DNA of 64,000 nt from NCBI RefSeq assembly GCF_947488565.1, contig NZ_CANKZC010000005.1, forward strand, positions 150,927-214,926, given 5' to 3'. The position numbers and the translations under genes were made by a program. The notes under the pieces were generated by a model. The model searched no databases. It worked only from the letters and a program-made list of their open reading frames with translations, and was not told where the DNA came from. This stretch comes from an uncultured Psychrobacter sp. GTDB lineage: Bacteria > Pseudomonadota > Gammaproteobacteria > Pseudomonadales > Moraxellaceae. Shown piece after piece: positions 4,914-38,811 of this stretch (its first letter is position 1; each line of letters begins with the position of its first letter).

Positions 4914-7013
4914 TTATTCAGTTTTTAATGGCTTATCTAAAGGCACGTTATACAAGCGCAAAGCCTCTTTCATGACATTGTGAAAGACTGGAGCTGTAGT
5001 CAGGCCTGCATAAATTTGACTACGAGGGTCTTCGATCAAAACGACACCGACTAGCTTTGGATTTGATGCAGGAGCCATGCCAGCGAACACGTTGCGATAT
5101 TGGTCAGTATAGTAGCCACCATCTGGGTTAATCCGGCGCGATGTCCCTGTTTTACCCGCGACACGGTAACCATCAATAGCAGCTGCCTTCGCGGTTCCAC
5201 CTGGCTCTGTTACTGCCTCAAGCATTTTGACAATCGACATCGCTTGCTCATGCTCCATGATACGCTTACTGGGCAGTGCCTTATCAGTTTTAGTCAAAGT
5301 TAACGGGTGCATGACACCGCCAGAAGCCAATGCTGCATAAGCCTGTGCTACTTGCGCAAGCGTCACTTGTAGACCGTAGCCATAGCTGACCGTCGCGCGG
5401 CGAGCCGTTTCTTTTTCTTTTGGGGTAGTCACCAAGCCTGCGCCCTCACCTGGAAATTTAAGCGGGGTTTTGGCCCCAAAGCCAAATTGTTTTTGCATGT
5501 TGGTAATGGCATCAGGCGGTAGAGATAAGGCAATCTTGGTCGAGGCAACGTTACTCGATTTTTGTAGTAGCGTCGCCATATTAATCCGTCCTAGATTGTT
5601 ATGGTCACGAATGGTATAGCCACGGACACGGATAGAACCTGGGTTGGTATCGATTAAAGAGTTGGCCGTATATTTACCAGAGTCTAACGCAGCCGCGACC
5701 GTAAACGGCTTCATCACCGAACCTGGCTCAAAAACATCAAGTAACGCGCGATTACGTTGGTTTTCACCAGTCATCTCATTAAGATTATTAGAGTTAAATG
5801 ATGGCCATGTCGATAGCGCCAATACTTCACCAGTCTGTACATCGACCACCATACCAGTCGACCAACGTGCTTGCTGTAAGCGTCCTGCTTTCTCTAACTC
5901 TTTATAAAGCAGATACTGCAAACGCGAATCAATGGTCAACGCCACGTCCTGTCCTGCAATCTCTGGTTCGACTTGTTTGATTTCTCTTAGGCTGTTTTGT
6001 TTGGCATCTTTTAACACCAAAACTTTGCCATCATCCCCTGCCAATGTTTTTTCGTACTGACGCTCAATACCGGCACGACCCTCGTAACCTCCCTCAGGAT
6101 CGCTGGCATTTTGTCCCATAAACCCGAGCAGCTGTGAATTGGGCTGCGGCTGAGGATAATAACGCTGAAAAAAGTTTTTCTCGTAAACACCAGGGAAATC
6201 AAGCGAGCTGACACTTTGAGCAATCTCAGGCGTGACCTTATTTAACAACGGCAAATAATGCGAGCCGGCGCCCGATGGCAGTGCCGCTTTGACCGCTTCT
6301 TCATCGGTGACGTCGATACTCTCATCAATGGCAGCCGCTTTTTCAAGCTCAGCGACTGGAATATTAGCAGCAGCCGCTAAGCGGGTCAGATCCATATTGT
6401 CTAAGCGTTTTTGCATACGCGCTTGTAGCTGCGGACTATCGGGATTGGCGATTTTGACACGATTGAGCTCATAGTATTCGCGCGCATAATCATGTGGGCT
6501 AAACGACACAGTCGCAAGCGGTGCGCTGACGGCTAAAGGCAAATCGTTGCGATCGGTAATCATACCGCGATAGGATTTTTGTGTGCGTACGCTCGTGATG
6601 AGCTCATTACCTTTATCTTGATAAAACTGTGCGTTGGCTACTTGCAGATAATAGGCGCGTGCTATCAACAAGCCCAATATGACTAAGGCAATAGCCCAAA
6701 TAGTACGAAAACGATTTTTGTCGTTTTCAAAACCGCCACGTGAGGAGGCGCCAGAGGCTTTGCTAAAAATGACTTTTTTACGGTTTTTGACACTGGTATA
6801 AGCGCCTTGATTGTCGTTGTTCTTTAGGCGTCCAAATAGCTTACCAGCACGATTGTTCGTTCCCGTTTTGGAAGATGTTGTGTTTGAAGTCTTACTGCCT
6901 GATTTGGCAGTATTAGTACGGCGTAGGGGCTTAATCACTTTACCACTGGCTGTTTTTTTGTTGGTATTTTTTGTTGTGCTTTTGCCAGTGCTTTTTGGTT
7001 TTTTATCACTCAT
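4914..7013 (-). CDS. ftsI: Peptidoglycan D,D-transpeptidase FtsI (penicillin-binding protein 3)
   Basis: The septal class B penicillin-binding protein, 699 residues, that cross-links peptidoglycan at the division site. Order: a basic, Lys/Thr/Asn-rich cytoplasmic tail (about 1-103), one membrane anchor (about 104-122), the PBP dimerisation domain, then the transpeptidase with the active-site serine motif SVMK, SSN and KTGTSR. E. coli FtsI is 588 residues; the extra length is mainly the N-terminal tail. The start ATG overlaps the ftsL stop by one base (TAATG), indicating translational coupling with its divisome partner FtsL. Confidence 0.96.
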   Translation of the reverse strand: MSDKKPKSTGKSTTKNTNKKTASGKVIKPLRRTNTAKSGSKTSNTTSSKTGTNNRAGKLFGRLKNNDNQGAYTSVKNRKKVIFSKASGASSRGGFENDKNRFRTIWAIALVILGLLIARAYYLQVANAQFYQDKGNELITSVRTQKSYRGMITDRNDLPLAVSAPLATVSFSPHDYAREYYELNRVKIANPDSPQLQARMQKRLDNMDLTRLAAAANIPVAELEKAAAIDESIDVTDEEAVKAALPSGAGSHYLPLLNKVTPEIAQSVSSLDFPGVYEKNFFQRYYPQPQPNSQLLGFMGQNASDPEGGYEGRAGIERQYEKTLAGDDGKVLVLKDAKQNSLREIKQVEPEIAGQDVALTIDSRLQYLLYKELEKAGRLQQARWSTGMVVDVQTGEVLALSTWPSFNSNNLNEMTGENQRNRALLDVFEPGSVMKPFTVAAALDSGKYTANSLIDTNPGSIRVRGYTIRDHNNLGRINMATLLQKSSNVASTKIALSLPPDAITNMQKQFGFGAKTPLKFPGEGAGLVTTPKEKETARRATVSYGYGLQVTLAQVAQAYAALASGGVMHPLTLTKTDKALPSKRIMEHEQAMSIVKMLEAVTEPGGTAKAAAIDGYRVAGKTGTSRRINPDGGYYTDQYRNVFAGMAPASNPKLVGVVLIEDPRSQIYAGLTTAPVFHNVMKEALRLYNVPLDKPLKTE

Positions 7014-34907: not shown

Positions 34908-35732
34908 TCAAACCACTCCCTTATAAAGAAAATAAAGTCCTACTACAAATAACAATACCGAAAAACACTTTTTCAATAATTGCGGTGAGAGCATATGAGC
35001 AACTTTTGCGCCGATTTTAGCGGTAAAAAAGCTCATAATACTGATACCCAAAAAGGCATACACATGCACAAAGCCAATGGTATTAGGTACATTCACTTCT
35101 TGTTGCATACCAAAGAACATAAATCCTAACGCGCCAGCTATAGCAATAGGTAGACCACATGCCGCTGAGGTGCCAACCGCCTTTTGCATGACCACATTAT
35201 AACGGGTGAGATAAGGCACCGTTAAGCTGCCGCCACCGATACCAAAGATAGCAGAGGCGATGCCAATGACCCCGCCTGCTGCCAACTGTTTCGGCTTAGA
35301 CGGTAGCTGCATAACGTTGTTATTAGCATCATTAAAATCTTTACCTACCTGTTTTTTACCCCCAAAAAACATCTTATAGGCAACCCACAGCAAAAACACA
35401 CCAACGATAAGCTGAAGGTATAACCCAGATATCTGTCCTGCAATCCCCGCGCCAAAAAAACAACCAAGCACCAAACCGGGAGCGAGGTTTTTAAAGACCG
35501 GCCACATGACGCCGCCTTTTTTATGGTGCGCCATCAGCGAGCTGATAGAGGTGATAATAATGGTTGCAAGGGAGGTACCCAATGCCAGATGCATGACGTT
35601 ATCAGCGGGGAAATCCATTTGGGTAAAGACAATAAATAGCAGCGGCACAATGATAGTACCGCCACCTACGCCAAAAAGCCCTGCCGCAAACCCTGCTAGC
35701 GCGCCAATGATTAAAAAAATGAATAATTCCAC
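34908..35732 (-). CDS. TauE/SafE family sulfite/organosulfur exporter
   Basis: 274 residues with eight hydrophobic helices in two repeats. GLFGVGGGTIIVPLL near the N-terminus and the matching IFGIGGGSLTVPYL at about residue 164 are the family hallmark. TauE/SafE proteins are linked to export of sulfite, sulfoacetate and similar anions across the inner membrane. The start is a GTG. It lies 43 bases after the flavin reductase gene, so it probably belongs to the mesX-mesD-reductase unit. Confidence 0.9.
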   Translation of the reverse strand: MELFIFLIIGALAGFAAGLFGVGGGTIIVPLLFIVFTQMDFPADNVMHLALGTSLATIIITSISSLMAHHKKGGVMWPVFKNLAPGLVLGCFFGAGIAGQISGLYLQLIVGVFLLWVAYKMFFGGKKQVGKDFNDANNNVMQLPSKPKQLAAGGVIGIASAIFGIGGGSLTVPYLTRYNVVMQKAVGTSAACGLPIAIAGALGFMFFGMQQEVNVPNTIGFVHVYAFLGISIMSFFTAKIGAKVAHMLSPQLLKKCFSVLLFVVGLYFLYKGVV

Positions 35733-35775
35733 AGGTGAGTACTTTTTAGTTGGTTAAAGTTAAAGAGTGAATCAC

Positions 35776-36279
35776 TTAAGCCTTCTGTATTTGACGAACG
35801 TGATGATAAGCGCGATTAAAATAGACCAAACTCTCGCCACTTTCAGAGTCTTGCTCAGATTGGCTGATAGCGACTACTCGGCACATAAACACACTATGAG
35901 TGCCCACTTGCTGAATATCCTCAATAACGCAATCAAAGCTCACCAACGCATCTTGTAGAACGGGCGCGCCAGTGACCAGCTCAGTCCAAGTGCCCTGCGC
36001 AAAACGCTCCTTTGCACTTAATTTAGAAGCAAAGGCATTGGATAAATGCTCGTGCTGCGCGCCTAGCACATTAACCGTTAAGATTTTATTCTCTACAAAA
36101 TGCACGTGCGAGCGTGCCGCCGTATTCATACAGACCAGCAAAGTTGGCGGCGTATCGCTGACACTACATACCGCAGATGCGGTAAAACCATGACTGCCGG
36201 ACACGCCTTTAGTCGTGATCACATTCACCGCTGTCGTGAGCAACGACATGGCATTTCTAAAATCAGTGACTTCAATCAT
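35776..36279 (-). CDS. Flavin reductase family protein
   Basis: 167 residues, the split-barrel FMN-binding flavin reductase fold: FRNAMSLLTTAVNVITT, then GFTASAVCSVSDTPPTLLVC, SHVHFVENKILTVNVL and a late YFNRAYHHV. These enzymes use NAD(P)H to make free reduced FMN for partner monooxygenases (HpaC, RutF, SsuE-like roles). No monooxygenase of a known class is next to it; instead it follows mesD after 188 bases and precedes the TauE/SafE gene. This suggests it serves the oxygen-dependent MesX/MesD reaction (inference). Confidence 0.88.
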   Translation of the reverse strand: MIEVTDFRNAMSLLTTAVNVITTKGVSGSHGFTASAVCSVSDTPPTLLVCMNTAARSHVHFVENKILTVNVLGAQHEHLSNAFASKLSAKERFAQGTWTELVTGAPVLQDALVSFDCVIEDIQQVGTHSVFMCRVVAISQSEQDSESGESLVYFNRAYHHVRQIQKA

Positions 36280-36327
36280 AACTAATATCCTAAATTTATC
36301 ACAGCTTGTTTCTCAAATGCGCTTAGC

Positions 36328-36399
36328 TGTAGGCTGGGTTTTTAACCCAGCATCATAACTTTGTAATATATAAAAGCTGGGCTAAAAGCCCAGCCTACA
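36328..36399. repeat. Double-hairpin palindromic repeat
   Basis: 72 bases between mesD and the flavin reductase gene. TGTAGGCTGGG at the left end and CCCAGCCTACA at the right end are perfect inverted repeats. Each end also folds alone: GCTGGG-TTTTTAA-CCCAGC and GCTGGG-CTAAAAG-CCCAGC. This is the build of REP/MITE-like elements and could act as an mRNA processing or attenuation point in the operon. Confidence 0.8.
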
Positions 36400-36467
36400 C
36401 GAATATATGTATGCTTGTAACTGAGGCCACTCATGGGGATAAACAAGCTAAGGGGTGTTAAGAAACG

Positions 36468-37511
36468 CTAAGTCGTCAGCTCTTGACGCACGATTGCCGC
36501 GCCAGCGCTTAATGCTTGTAGCTTACCGCGGGCAACCTCACGAGAGAGCGGTGCCATGCCGCAGTTGGTCGACGGATATAGCTTATCGGCATCGACGAAC
36601 TGCAAGGCTTTGCGTAAGGTATCGGCCACTTCCTCAGCCGTTTCAATGGTGTTGGTGGCGACATCGATAGCACCGATCATCACTTTTTTACCGCGAATCA
36701 GCTCAATCAAGTCCATAGGCACATGCGAGTTTTGACATTCAAGCGAGATAATATCGATATTCGACTGCTGCAATTTGGGAAACGCTTGCTCGTATTGACG
36801 CCACTCGGAACCCAGTGTTTTTTTCCAATTATTATTGGCTTCGATACCATAACCGTAGCAGATATGCACCGCCGTTTCACACTTTAGCCCTTCGATAGCG
36901 CGCTCAAGCGTAGCCACGCCCCAATCATTAACATCATCAAAGAACACGTTAAATGCAGGCTCATCGAACTGAATAATATCGACACCAGCCGCTTCTAATT
37001 CGCGCGCTTCCTCGTTAAGGATTTTAGCAAATTCCCAAGCGAGCTTTTCACGGCTTTTATAATGCGCATCGTATAGCGTATCGATCATGGTCATCGGGCC
37101 TGGTAGCGCCCATTTGATCGGCTGATCGGTTTGCGCGCGCAAAAACTTGGCATCGTCAACAAACACGGGCTTAGTACGGCTGACCGCGCCTACCACTGTT
37201 GGTACGCTCGCCTCATAGCGATCACGTATTTTGACCGTTTCACGATTCTCAAAATCCACACCTTGCAGGTGCTCAATAAAGGTCGTCACAAAATGCTGGC
37301 GGGTCTGCTCGCCATCGCTGACGATATCGATACCAGCTTGTAATTGCTCTTGCAAAGACACGCGCAAGGCGTCTTGTTTGGCTTCTAATAACTGCTCGCC
37401 ATCTAATGCCCAAGGCGACCAAATTTTTTCAGGTTCTGCCAACCAAGATGGTTTGGGTAAGCTACCAGCGGTTGAGGTTGGTAATAGTAATTTTGATGAT
37501 AATGTTGTCAT
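36468..37511 (-). CDS. mesD: Core methionine synthase MesD (MetE C-domain-like, folate-independent)
   Basis: 347 residues, equal to only the C-terminal catalytic half of MetE. Zinc ligands expected of MetE are in place: His216 and Cys218 in AVHICYG, Glu258 in SLECQNS and Cys317 in STNCGMAP. The N-terminal folate-binding duplicate domain of MetE is absent. Stand-alone core enzymes in aerobic bacteria next to DUF1852 form the MesD family, shown by genetics in Acinetobacter to make methionine without methyl-folate or cobalamin but needing DUF1852 and oxygen. The methyl donor is unknown. mesX lies just upstream on the same strand. Confidence 0.9.
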   Translation of the reverse strand: MTTLSSKLLLPTSTAGSLPKPSWLAEPEKIWSPWALDGEQLLEAKQDALRVSLQEQLQAGIDIVSDGEQTRQHFVTTFIEHLQGVDFENRETVKIRDRYEASVPTVVGAVSRTKPVFVDDAKFLRAQTDQPIKWALPGPMTMIDTLYDAHYKSREKLAWEFAKILNEEARELEAAGVDIIQFDEPAFNVFFDDVNDWGVATLERAIEGLKCETAVHICYGYGIEANNNWKKTLGSEWRQYEQAFPKLQQSNIDIISLECQNSHVPMDLIELIRGKKVMIGAIDVATNTIETAEEVADTLRKALQFVDADKLYPSTNCGMAPLSREVARGKLQALSAGAAIVRQELTT

Positions 37512-37566
37512 AGTGATTTGTCTTTTATATTTTGGTTTTTATAGTAAATGTATGGTGATTTGAGAA

Positions 37567-37638
37567 GAGACTGTTATCTATTTTTTACAGCCTCTGTCAG
37601 CGTAGACACAGCAAGCAAGAAAAATGTATAACAGTCTC
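37567..37638 (+). repeat. Hairpin repeat family, copy C
   Basis: 72 bases in the mesX-mesD gap. The ends GAGACTGTTAT (37567-37577) and ATAACAGTCTC (37628-37638) are perfect inverted repeats. The centre (ACAGCCTCTGTCAGCGTAGA, CACAGCAAGCAAG) is almost identical to copy A, but the stem sequence is different from A and B. Confidence 0.8.
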
Positions 37639-37691
37639 CCTAAATAATCTCTACATCGAACTAGTTTCATATCTTGGCGAATAGCATACTA

Positions 37692-38699
37692 TTAAGCCGC
37701 GCGTTTTCTAACCGTTGAACGGCTAACCTCAAAGTCTGCCGCCCACTCCTCTAAAATATTTTGATACGGCTTAATAAACTGCTCTTCGGTGAACTTACCT
37801 TGCGTTACCGCCATCTGACTACGCTCTTCACGGTCATAGACCACTTGTGTCAGCGAATAGTCTTGATAGGTTAAACTCGGCTGATACACTTGTGCAGCGG
37901 TCGAGTTGGCATTATAAATCTCAGGGCGGTAGATCTTTTGGAACGACTCCATCGTCGCAATAGCGCTGATCAGCTCAAGATCGGTGTAATCACTGAGCAA
38001 ATCACCAGCGAAATAAAACGCCAGCGGTGCCACGCTACCGGTAGGCATGAAATAGCGCACGGTTAAGCCCATCTTATGAAAATAATCATCCGTCAAAGAG
38101 TACTCATCCTGTCTATACTCCACCCCTAATACTGGATGCTGATTGGCAGTGCGATGATAGGCTTTACTGGTTGAGACACTCAGGCAAATCACTGGTGTCT
38201 TGCTAAAGTTAGCTTTGTAGGCCTCTGACTGTAATAAATACTGAAACAGTTTGCCATGTAATTCACCAAACTCCGCTGGCGGCGGGCATCCTGGGTTTTT
38301 ATCGAAATGCTCAGGCAGGACCACGCTAAAGTCGTAATCGCGCACATAGGATGAAAAGCTGTTGCCGATCATGCCATCAATACGGGTATTGTCTTTATGA
38401 TCGACAATAGTGGTTTGTAGCATCTCAATGATCGGAAAGGCGTCGCCCTTACCTTCGATATCCATATTCGCTGAAATAATATCCACCTCAACAGAGTAAC
38501 GATCGGCGTTTGGGTTATCTGAATGCGCTAAAGCATTAAAACGATTGTTAATCATATTAAGCGTCTTGCGCAAATTATCCTCACGCTGCTCACCACGTGC
38601 TAGATTAGCAAAATTGGTGGTCAGACGCGTGCTCTCTGCAGGCTGATAGTTTTCATCGAAACGGATGCGCTTAATTGAACAGCTAAATTCTTTACTCAT
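37692..38699 (-). CDS. mesX: MesX (DUF1852), partner of MesD
   Basis: 335 residues of the DUF1852 family: SCSIKRIRFDENYQPAESTR opening, then NLRKTLNMINNRFN, NRYDFS-type VRDYDFSVVLPEH and the YRQDEYSLTDDYFHKMG segment. No membrane helix or signal peptide. DUF1852 is genetically required for MesD activity in Acinetobacter baylyi; its chemistry is unknown. The name is used because both partners are adjacent here. It is the first gene of the left-going unit, and a MetR-type palindrome lies about 100 bases upstream of the ATG. Confidence 0.9.
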   Translation of the reverse strand: MSKEFSCSIKRIRFDENYQPAESTRLTTNFANLARGEQREDNLRKTLNMINNRFNALAHSDNPNADRYSVEVDIISANMDIEGKGDAFPIIEMLQTTIVDHKDNTRIDGMIGNSFSSYVRDYDFSVVLPEHFDKNPGCPPPAEFGELHGKLFQYLLQSEAYKANFSKTPVICLSVSTSKAYHRTANQHPVLGVEYRQDEYSLTDDYFHKMGLTVRYFMPTGSVAPLAFYFAGDLLSDYTDLELISAIATMESFQKIYRPEIYNANSTAAQVYQPSLTYQDYSLTQVVYDREERSQMAVTQGKFTEEQFIKPYQNILEEWAADFEVSRSTVRKRAA

Positions 38700-38747: not shown

Positions 38748-38811
38748 ATCATACCCAAACTCTGACATGAATAAAAACGATGTTAATTAAATTTAAGATG
38801 AATATAATTCA
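38748..38811 (-). promoter_or_regulatory. Candidate MetR-activated promoter of mesX
   Basis: A perfect TGAA-N5-TTCA palindrome (38799-38811, the known MetR/LysR-type consensus) lies upstream of a TATGAT box read on the minus strand (38748-38753). No good -35 hexamer is at the right distance, as expected for an activator-dependent promoter. The palindrome centre would be near -64. One such palindrome is expected by chance in a window this size, so its position is the argument. Confidence 0.5.

Follow-up and report, generated by a model that had tools for sequence, protein, structure and literature searches.

A four-gene mesX-mesD locus in Psychrobacter

A 64,000-nucleotide stretch of the genome of an uncultured Psychrobacter sp. 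(contig NZ_CANKZC010000005.1; the whole stretch is referred to below as the window) carries on its minus strand a locus built around the MesD/MesX methionine synthase system. Gene identities were assigned using Pfam and NCBIfam profile scans. The first gene, mesX (37692 to 38699), encodes a 335-amino-acid DUF1852 protein (PF08908, 578.9 bits against a cut-off of 25) that is the putative oxygenase partner of MesD, and is followed by mesD (36468 to 37511), encoding a core, folate-domain-less methionine synthase of 347 amino acids (PF01717, 134.4 bits; cut-off, 21). The third gene (35776 to 36279) encodes a RutF/HpaC-like flavin reductase of 167 amino acids (PF01613, 131.0 bits; cut-off, 27). Because it missed both NCBIfam equivalog cut-offs (RutF, 205.9 of 254.75 bits; HpaC, 153.6 of 205.95), it was classed only as a PF01613 member. 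The fourth (34908 to 35732), with a GTG start, encodes a TauE/SafE (TSUP) family transporter of 274 amino acids (PF01925, 185.6 bits; cut-off, 32.6), for which sulfite export would be suggested by the family name alone. Intergenic gaps measure 180 bases between mesX and mesD, 188 between mesD and the reductase gene, and 43 between the reductase and TauE genes. A preliminary description of this DNA had placed these four genes here, with the 43-base spacing, and the open reading frame coordinates and Pfam scores agree with it.

The window MesD matched NF006589 ("methionine synthase") at 692.9 bits (cut-off, 392), was covered by PF01717 over nearly its entire length, and aligned to Escherichia coli MetE with 29.4% identity over 303 pairs. 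In this alignment, the MetE zinc ligands H641, C643, E665, and C726 correspond to H216, C218, E258, and C317 of MesD, and the homocysteine residues S433, E484, and D599 correspond to S17, E68, and D183; the roles of the MetE residues were taken from Price et al. 2021 (PMC7857596). The folate-binding half is missing, as MesD has 347 amino acids compared to 753 for MetE and the Meth_synt_1 score (19.9 bits) fell below its cut-off of 27. Both the complete set of four zinc ligands and the lack of a folate-binding half had been noted from the sequence earlier, and both held. Among solved proteins, MesD closely matched 3RPD (molecule name, "Methionine synthase (B12-independent)"; E = 1.8e-197, residues 6 to 345), a structure cited by Price et al. 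as MesD with selenomethionine bound (PMC7857596). Those authors recognized MesD by a score of at least 560 bits to ACIAD3523 together with an adjacent DUF1852 gene (PMC7857596). With the window MesD as query, MesD of Acinetobacter baylyi DSM 14961 (locus L066), which is the same species as ACIAD3523 although not that record, scored 681 bits. By its domain content, catalytic residues, closeness to A. baylyi MesD, and adjoining mesX, the protein is a MesD core methionine synthase. For relatives, MesD has been reported to require MesX and oxygen and not MetF, B12, or methyl-folate, and mesX and mesD together suffice in E. coli (PMC7857596). The genome that holds the window also encodes metH above cut-off, as do 24 of 25 mesX genomes (this one included); therefore, MesD/MesX is not its sole methionine synthase.

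The same two proteins and the same adjacent flavin reductase occur in the published systems of A. baylyi ADP1 (ACIAD3523/3524, with reductase ACIAD3522) and Sphingomonas koreensis (Ga0059261_2929/2928, with reductase 2931) (PMC7857596). In A. baylyi DSM 14961, the order mesX-mesD-reductase is identical and MesX shares 70% identity with that of the window; no TauE match was obtained there, whereas the window has TauE 43 bases past the reductase gene. Price et al. observed that a flavin reductase is often near mesX/mesD, predicted a flavin-using MesX, and hoped for tests of it, leaving open the methyl donor and the chemistry of MesX (PMC7857596). The MesD/MesX system is thus already published, as is the proposal of a nearby flavin reductase as the working partner of MesX. 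New here are the two reductase families that flank or split the pair, the linkage to TauE, the counts of a MetR-type box, and the recurrence of QueH and methylenetetrahydrofolate reductase (MTHFR)-like genes.

Flavin reductase and TauE genes beside mesX and mesD

The neighborhoods of mesX were surveyed in the 80 nearest named loci; in 43 more MesX genomes from an even draw across the phylum (44 of 398 positive, the window's own included); in 6 more from a draw of the order of genome G225 (10 of 300 positive, 4 already counted) and 1 more when the class of G277 was sampled (3 of 240 positive, 2 of them already counted); and in 19 plasmid loci hand-picked out of 209 matching records, with Actinobacteria covered by a single Rhodococcus plasmid locus. 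An extra class draw of 369 genomes gave 7 matches, of which six were already counted and one (G872) was a sub-cut-off fragment and was excluded, and extra draws in the orders of G539 and G371 (1 of 3 and 1 of 33 positive) returned genomes already counted. Statistics were computed on a drawn set of 49 non-Psychrobacter loci from 33 genera, the drawn Psychrobacter locus L116 being excluded as identical to L016. A gene was scored as adjacent when it lay between mesX and mesD or within 600 bases of the pair, using phmmer with a handful of queries; a Pfam tally of direct neighbors reproduced the resulting numbers. Expected counts assume random gene placement at genome-average density and ignore relatedness, so that P values are indicative only; densities came from 11 genomes for TauE and 24 for the reductases, some of them picked for having linked partners. 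As a control within the same loci, matches near the pair (gap of at most 1,200 bases; 155,259 bases in all) were compared with those further out (more than 1,600 bases; 553,388 bases), and matches in between were not counted.

Of 40 Psychrobacter loci, 4 were too short to score; in the other 36, which extend 3.9 kb or more downstream, mesD is always followed by a reductase gene. The same holds for 35 of 36 Acinetobacter loci, the exception being Acinetobacter sp. A47 (L078), which has no reductase or TauE match. Among the 80 nearest loci are four from other genera, and in three of these (L049, L065, and L077) mesD is followed by a PF01613 gene, while none was seen in L081. Within the drawn set, PF01613 genes were adjacent to or between the pair in 4 of 49 loci (4 genera) and PF03358 genes in 5 of 49 (3 genera). 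Taken together, reductases of both families accompany the pair in 9 of 49 loci and 7 of 33 genera, compared to 0.12 loci expected, and the flank control gave 9 matches near the pair versus 0 further out. In a Pfam tally of 97 direct neighbors, not preselected by family, TauE and LysR were the commonest families (8 each), with Flavin_Reduct and FMN_red at 4 each; a fifth FMN_red gene (L124) sits between mesX and mesD and hence falls outside this tally.

The two families take up different positions. PF03358 genes lie 44 to 172 bases 5' of mesX in L191, L147, L149, L150, and L197 and between mesX and mesD in L124, and all five MsuE-type PF03358 proteins scanned (L191, L197, L149, L147, and L124) scored above the MsuE equivalog cut-off. 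By best NCBIfam match, in every case below cut-off, the PF01613 proteins were RutF-like in the window, L190, and L199 and HsaB-like in L188, L065, and L077; of these subtyped loci only L199 belongs to the drawn set, and L114, L198, and L201 were left without a subtype. The idea that MesX uses flavin is strengthened, since reductases of different families adjoin mesX/mesD in other lineages; of the new evidence, the strongest in favor of a reduced-flavin mechanism is that reductases were recruited from two or more families and stand on either side of mesX/mesD. This repeated use of different reductases sharpens the published suggestion into a testable mechanism. As a separate observation, a gene resembling pyridoxamine-phosphate oxidases, an FMN protein family, lies 352 bases 5' of mesX on the same strand in Pantoea eucrina (L193, positions 5073 to 5645).

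TauE follows the reductase gene in 35 of 36 Psychrobacter loci and in 18 Acinetobacter loci, out of 35 or, with L078 included, 36. In the drawn set, it was 600 bases or less away in 8 of 49 loci compared to 0.09 expected, and in 4 of 33 genera (P = 4.6e-7, relatedness among genera ignored), and 9 matches were counted near the pair versus 2 further out. The linkage that had been noticed in the window alone therefore exceeds chance, and TauE is a real but clade-limited neighbor of mesX/mesD. Its arrangement varies: besides the operon-tail position of Moraxellaceae, TauE is divergent and 5' of mesX in 5 of 7 drawn genomes of g27, a genus that resembles Pseudoalteromonas, as well as on two plasmids named as Pseudoalteromonas, and is convergent after mesD in three drawn loci (f9 and f31). 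As an aside, locus L199 (genome G1003, from the order of G225) shows the Moraxellaceae order mesX-mesD-reductase-TauE with a sodium/bile-acid-symporter-family gene upstream; the MesX of G225 itself resembles that of Acidovorax, and the L199 locus looks like a horizontal transfer.

A TSUP tree was built from 40 proteins, 21 of them linked to mesX (those of L077 and L138 two genes away) and 19 other; four duplicates and one truncated row were dropped, and 7 of 30 other TauE loci, lacking a phmmer match, were not entered. Linked proteins fell on separate branches, and the starred branches force at least three label changes, a count that carries a long-branch warning. A single orthologous TauE co-traveling with mesX was ruled out by this separation. 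Because the linked proteins come from separate branches and occur in three arrangements (operon tail, divergent, and convergent), we read TauE as answering a recurrent shared need rather than as part of a fixed complex.

Adjacency could instead reflect chance or vertical hitch-hiking and be functionally meaningless. TauE was absent within 600 bases from 41 of 49 drawn loci (40 of 49 if L199, with TauE behind its reductase, is counted as having it), and the eight adjacent cases comprise five from one genus, of which seven genomes were drawn, plus three of one TSUP branch, perhaps two independent events beyond Moraxellaceae. The excess over expectation in loci and genera, and the near-versus-far difference in the flank control, speak against this explanation, and we consider it unlikely. 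A stronger contender, though still short of even odds, is that TauE is a sulfur-balance gene for sulfite, sulfate, or a similar anion, co-regulated with methionine demand and standing outside the MesX reaction. Separate TSUP branches and three arrangements are what a shared need would produce, and TauE is missing from 18 of 36 Acinetobacter loci if L078 is counted and from 17 of 35 if not; on the other side, the word TauE does not appear in the main text of a transcriptome paper on the B12 response (PMC12892962), and the substrate assignment is putative. Price et al. 2021 likewise do not use the word in their main text (PMC7857596), and in the open-licence literature we found no paper that joins TauE or QueH with MesX or MesD. 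As a recurrent neighbor, the TSUP transporter offers a lead to the by-product.

MesX and the source of the methyl group

Across 149 MesX homologues (the window's included), with pairwise identity of at least 54%, 83 residues are invariant, among them C172, H148, H188, E194, R120, D121, D123, R258, and E260. A Pfam scan of MesX up to E = 10 returned PF08908 alone, and comparison with Protein Data Bank (PDB) sequences gave no match. AlphaFold2 models were built from alignments of 31 and 70 sequences (mean predicted local distance difference test scores of 80.3 and 81.0; predicted template-modeling score, 0.83 for both). Coproporphyrinogen III oxidase appeared in both Foldseek lists at noise level (E = 1.0 and 0.40; template-modeling scores of 0.09 to 0.15) and was rejected as the MesX fold, with an hhalign probability of 0.6% to E. 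coli HemF. A scan of viral contigs confirmed no MesX relative, and a search of the open-licence literature found no biochemistry of MesX after the 2021 paper.

Known two-component FMNH2 (reduced flavin mononucleotide)-dependent monooxygenases include HpaB/HpaC, SsuD/SsuE, and MsuD/MsuE. The mesX loci resemble these in having a separate NAD(P)H:flavin reductase gene, from the same families, beside a putative oxygenase; this is so for the PF01613 gene of the window and for 9 of 49 drawn loci. They differ in the oxygenase, as MesX belongs to no other Pfam family and matches neither a solved sequence nor a known fold. Overall, we judge it probable that the locus provides a B12- and methyl-folate-independent route to methionine beside MetH, with MesX as the reduced-flavin oxygenase half, the TSUP transporter as an accessory, and a MetR-like control. 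In such a route, an NAD(P)H:flavin reductase, encoded next door or elsewhere depending on the lineage, would make FMNH2; MesX would use FMNH2 and O2 to oxidize a common central metabolite, releasing a methyl group; and MesD would pass this group to its zinc-bound homocysteine. The small anion moved by the transporter would be either a side product of the MesX reaction or a sulfur anion linked to homocysteine supply, and a MetR-like regulator would control transcription. More tentatively, MesX might be a new-fold FMNH2-dependent oxygenase that cuts a methyl group off a central metabolite, such as a 2-oxo acid, and delivers it directly to MesD without folate, cobalamin, or S-adenosylmethionine, with the TSUP protein exporting the leftover small carboxylate or sulfur anion and the locus forming, together with QueH in places, a B12-independence cassette.

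Several observations weigh against the flavin-dependent interpretation. Foldseek searches with both models had best E values of 0.14 and 0.16, with none below 0.1, and revealed no known flavin fold; the models are confident in the core, and since the second alignment was shallow (effective number of sequences, 1.6) a fold could have been missed. No flavin reductase adjoins the pair in 40 of 49 drawn loci, and 32 of 49 have neither a reductase nor TauE. The preliminary description had named absence of the two partners from most mesX/mesD loci as a refuting outcome, and most drawn loci do lack them. An FMN_red gene was present somewhere in all 25 mesX genomes examined and a PF01613 gene in 24 of them, and unlinked loci are therefore compatible with supply in trans. 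E. coli has flavin reductases of its own. The locus reductase was dispensable for the rescue of E. coli by mesX and mesD, and the account of S. koreensis mutants rescued by methionine describes those other than mesD and mesX as mostly affected in homocysteine synthesis or similar functions and does not name the reductase (PMC7857596). Alternatively, the target of a flavin reductase could be a metal in MesX. The earlier proposal that the flavin reductase feeds MesX is backed by the survey, at 9 of 49 loci versus 0.12 expected, although not as a new idea, having been made by Price et al. 2021 (PMC7857596).

The same evidence bears on the possibility that MesX is an oxygen-dependent enzyme without flavin, either metal-dependent or cofactor-free, and that the reductase merely re-reduces its metal or guards against oxidation. 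The searches of Foldseek, Pfam, and PDB connected MesX with no flavin fold or family, and the invariant H148, H188, C172, E194, D121, D123, and E260 could bind a metal. The oxygen-dependent coproporphyrinogen oxidase that appeared in both fold lists is cofactor-free, but those matches were noise and the hhalign comparison with HemF gave no support. Moreover, the signature of two-component flavin monooxygenases is an oxygenase with its own FMN reductase gene next to it. We therefore hold a flavin-free MesX to be distinctly less probable than the reduced-flavin oxygenase, whose use of flavin is what gene neighborhood leads us to infer.

The preliminary description had gone further, proposing an organosulfur donor from which MesX would release a methyl group, and TauE as exporter of the resulting sulfite. 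Two observations speak for this scheme: linked MsuE-type reductases belong to a family named for methanesulfonate use, and TauE/SafE is joint first with LysR among the neighbor families. Nonetheless, no organosulfur monooxygenase was among the 25 of 123 neighbor families listed, and, as a matter of reasoning, a methionine-derived methyl donor could not give net methionine synthesis. In M9 glucose medium, for which magnesium sulfate is the sole listed sulfur source, metE and metF mutants of E. coli were rescued by just the two S. koreensis genes mesX and mesD (PMC7857596). Given this rescue by mesX and mesD alone on sulfate medium, E. coli needs neither an organosulfur donor from outside nor the reductase or TauE of the locus, and because the medium lists no other sulfur source, the methyl donor must exist in sulfate-grown E. 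coli. In Acinetobacter baumannii, sfnG, msuE (separate from the locus), ssuD, and tauD were upregulated with B12, while mesX and its reductase were downregulated (PMC12892962); such opposite responses do not suggest a joint pathway. An organosulfur methyl donor is accordingly disfavored, as is export by TauE of sulfite made by MesX, since mesX and mesD function in E. coli without the locus TauE, and we regard the scheme as a whole as highly improbable. Sulfite is an unlikely by-product of MesX, and the transporter could still serve sulfur balance.

Probable MetR-type control, B12 context, and intergenic repeats

A MetR-type box, TGAAN5TTCA, lies at 38799 to 38811, 112 bases 5' of the mesX start. 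The window alone held 2 matches versus 1.74 expected, so that chance could account for one site in 64 kb, and the weight rests on the survey, in which the box occurred within 350 bases 5' of mesX in 70 of 149 loci compared to 0.012 expected per 353 bases from the remaining sequence of these loci. These loci (145 distinct MesX sequences) are related, with one Psychrobacter locus entered twice (L016 and L116), and the positives split into 51 of 78 Moraxellaceae and 19 of 71 other loci. The core motif is that of the MetR regulon, ATGAA-N5-TTCAT, for which Leyn et al. 2014 reported PF08908-metE2 as a member in five to seven groups, listing "a hypothetical reductase (PF08908 in Xanthomonadales)" (PMC4239095). 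They found MetR in all gamma- and betaproteobacterial lineages studied except Moraxellaceae (4 genomes) (PMC4239095); here, in contrast, the box precedes mesX in most Moraxellaceae loci, and a MetR-like LysR gene (230 to 238 bits versus E. coli MetR) follows TauE in Acinetobacter L073, L080, and plasmid L225. Outside L002 to L080, 19 of 70 loci also have a MetR-like LysR gene, at −2.6 to +3.4 kb relative to mesX.

In A. baumannii AB5075, B12 lowered mesX strongly (log2 of −8.33) and the flavin reductase gene ABUW_3196 less so (log2 of −2.52; PMC12892962, Table 1), a pattern that would fit homocysteine-driven control of the MetR type. Two results count against such control. A search of the window's own genome with the stricter box TGAATNNNATTCA returned 12 sites (4 in a backward-read control) and recovered no methionine regulon: most TGAATNNNATTCA sites were inside open reading frames, one was 48 bases 5' of an ArsR-type gene (named by eye), and near gene starts no methionine gene other than mesX was recognized. 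In addition, the LysR gene adjoining mesX in Rhodococcus L185 has a best match that is not MetR-like. We infer that the regulator binding in Psychrobacter is most likely MetR-like. An Rfam search of the whole window at the gathering threshold found no riboswitch, matching only 5S rRNA and two tRNAs.

QueH, the cobalamin-independent counterpart of the epoxyqueuosine reductase QueG (PMC11906303), was encoded about 3.5 kb or less from mesX in 9 of 150 loci (six from Acinetobacter, plus L124, L188, and L196). Loci with QueH noted were L053, L057, L067, L068, L070, L073, L124, L188, L196, and L225, in pieces only in L068 and L070; the gene is directly beside mesX/mesD in L124 and L196, and the L053 protein matched a solved QueH with E = 1e-25. 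A long MTHFR-like protein, weakly matching a solved MTHFR (E = 0.003), was encoded no further than 5 kb from mesX in 11 of 150 loci (L051, L053, L057, L068, L073, L075, L077, L078, L151, L152, and L188; 463 to 501 amino acids, in two open reading frames in L151). Its L225 counterpart is annotated "methylenetetrahydrofolate reductase C-terminal domain-containing protein." Both were rarer in the drawn set (QueH, 1 of 49; MTHFR-like, 2 of 49) than in the full set. We tentatively read the two genes as signs that mesX/mesD sits among one-carbon and B12-sparing genes, and the recurrence of QueH suggests a B12-independence cassette. MesD/MesX has also been reported to be insensitive to nitrous oxide (PMC13059711). 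Since the system can replace B12-dependent MetH, the locus bears on how bacteria escape B12 limitation.

The closest MesX relatives in the species collection are from Psychrobacter (79 to 88% identity). Psychrobacter submarinus carries two mesX loci in one genome: L037, where TauE scores fully and matches to mesD and the flavin reductase are fragmentary, and L038, where mesX, mesD, and the reductase are present and TauE has no match. In the window, an inverted repeat with 19-nucleotide arms (37567 to 37638), a putative element, occupies the mesX-mesD gap, and a second with 24-nucleotide arms (36328 to 36399) occupies the mesD-reductase gap and includes a terminator-like hairpin at 36374 to 36396. 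The scanned stretch held 6 terminator-like sites compared to 4.1 in shuffles, and this hairpin is a putative terminator; because of it, co-transcription of all four genes in this strain is putative. Both gaps are thus filled by inverted repeats, and the equivalent gaps are far shorter in several relatives, the mesD-reductase gap being 37 to 44 bases in L003, L039, and L040.

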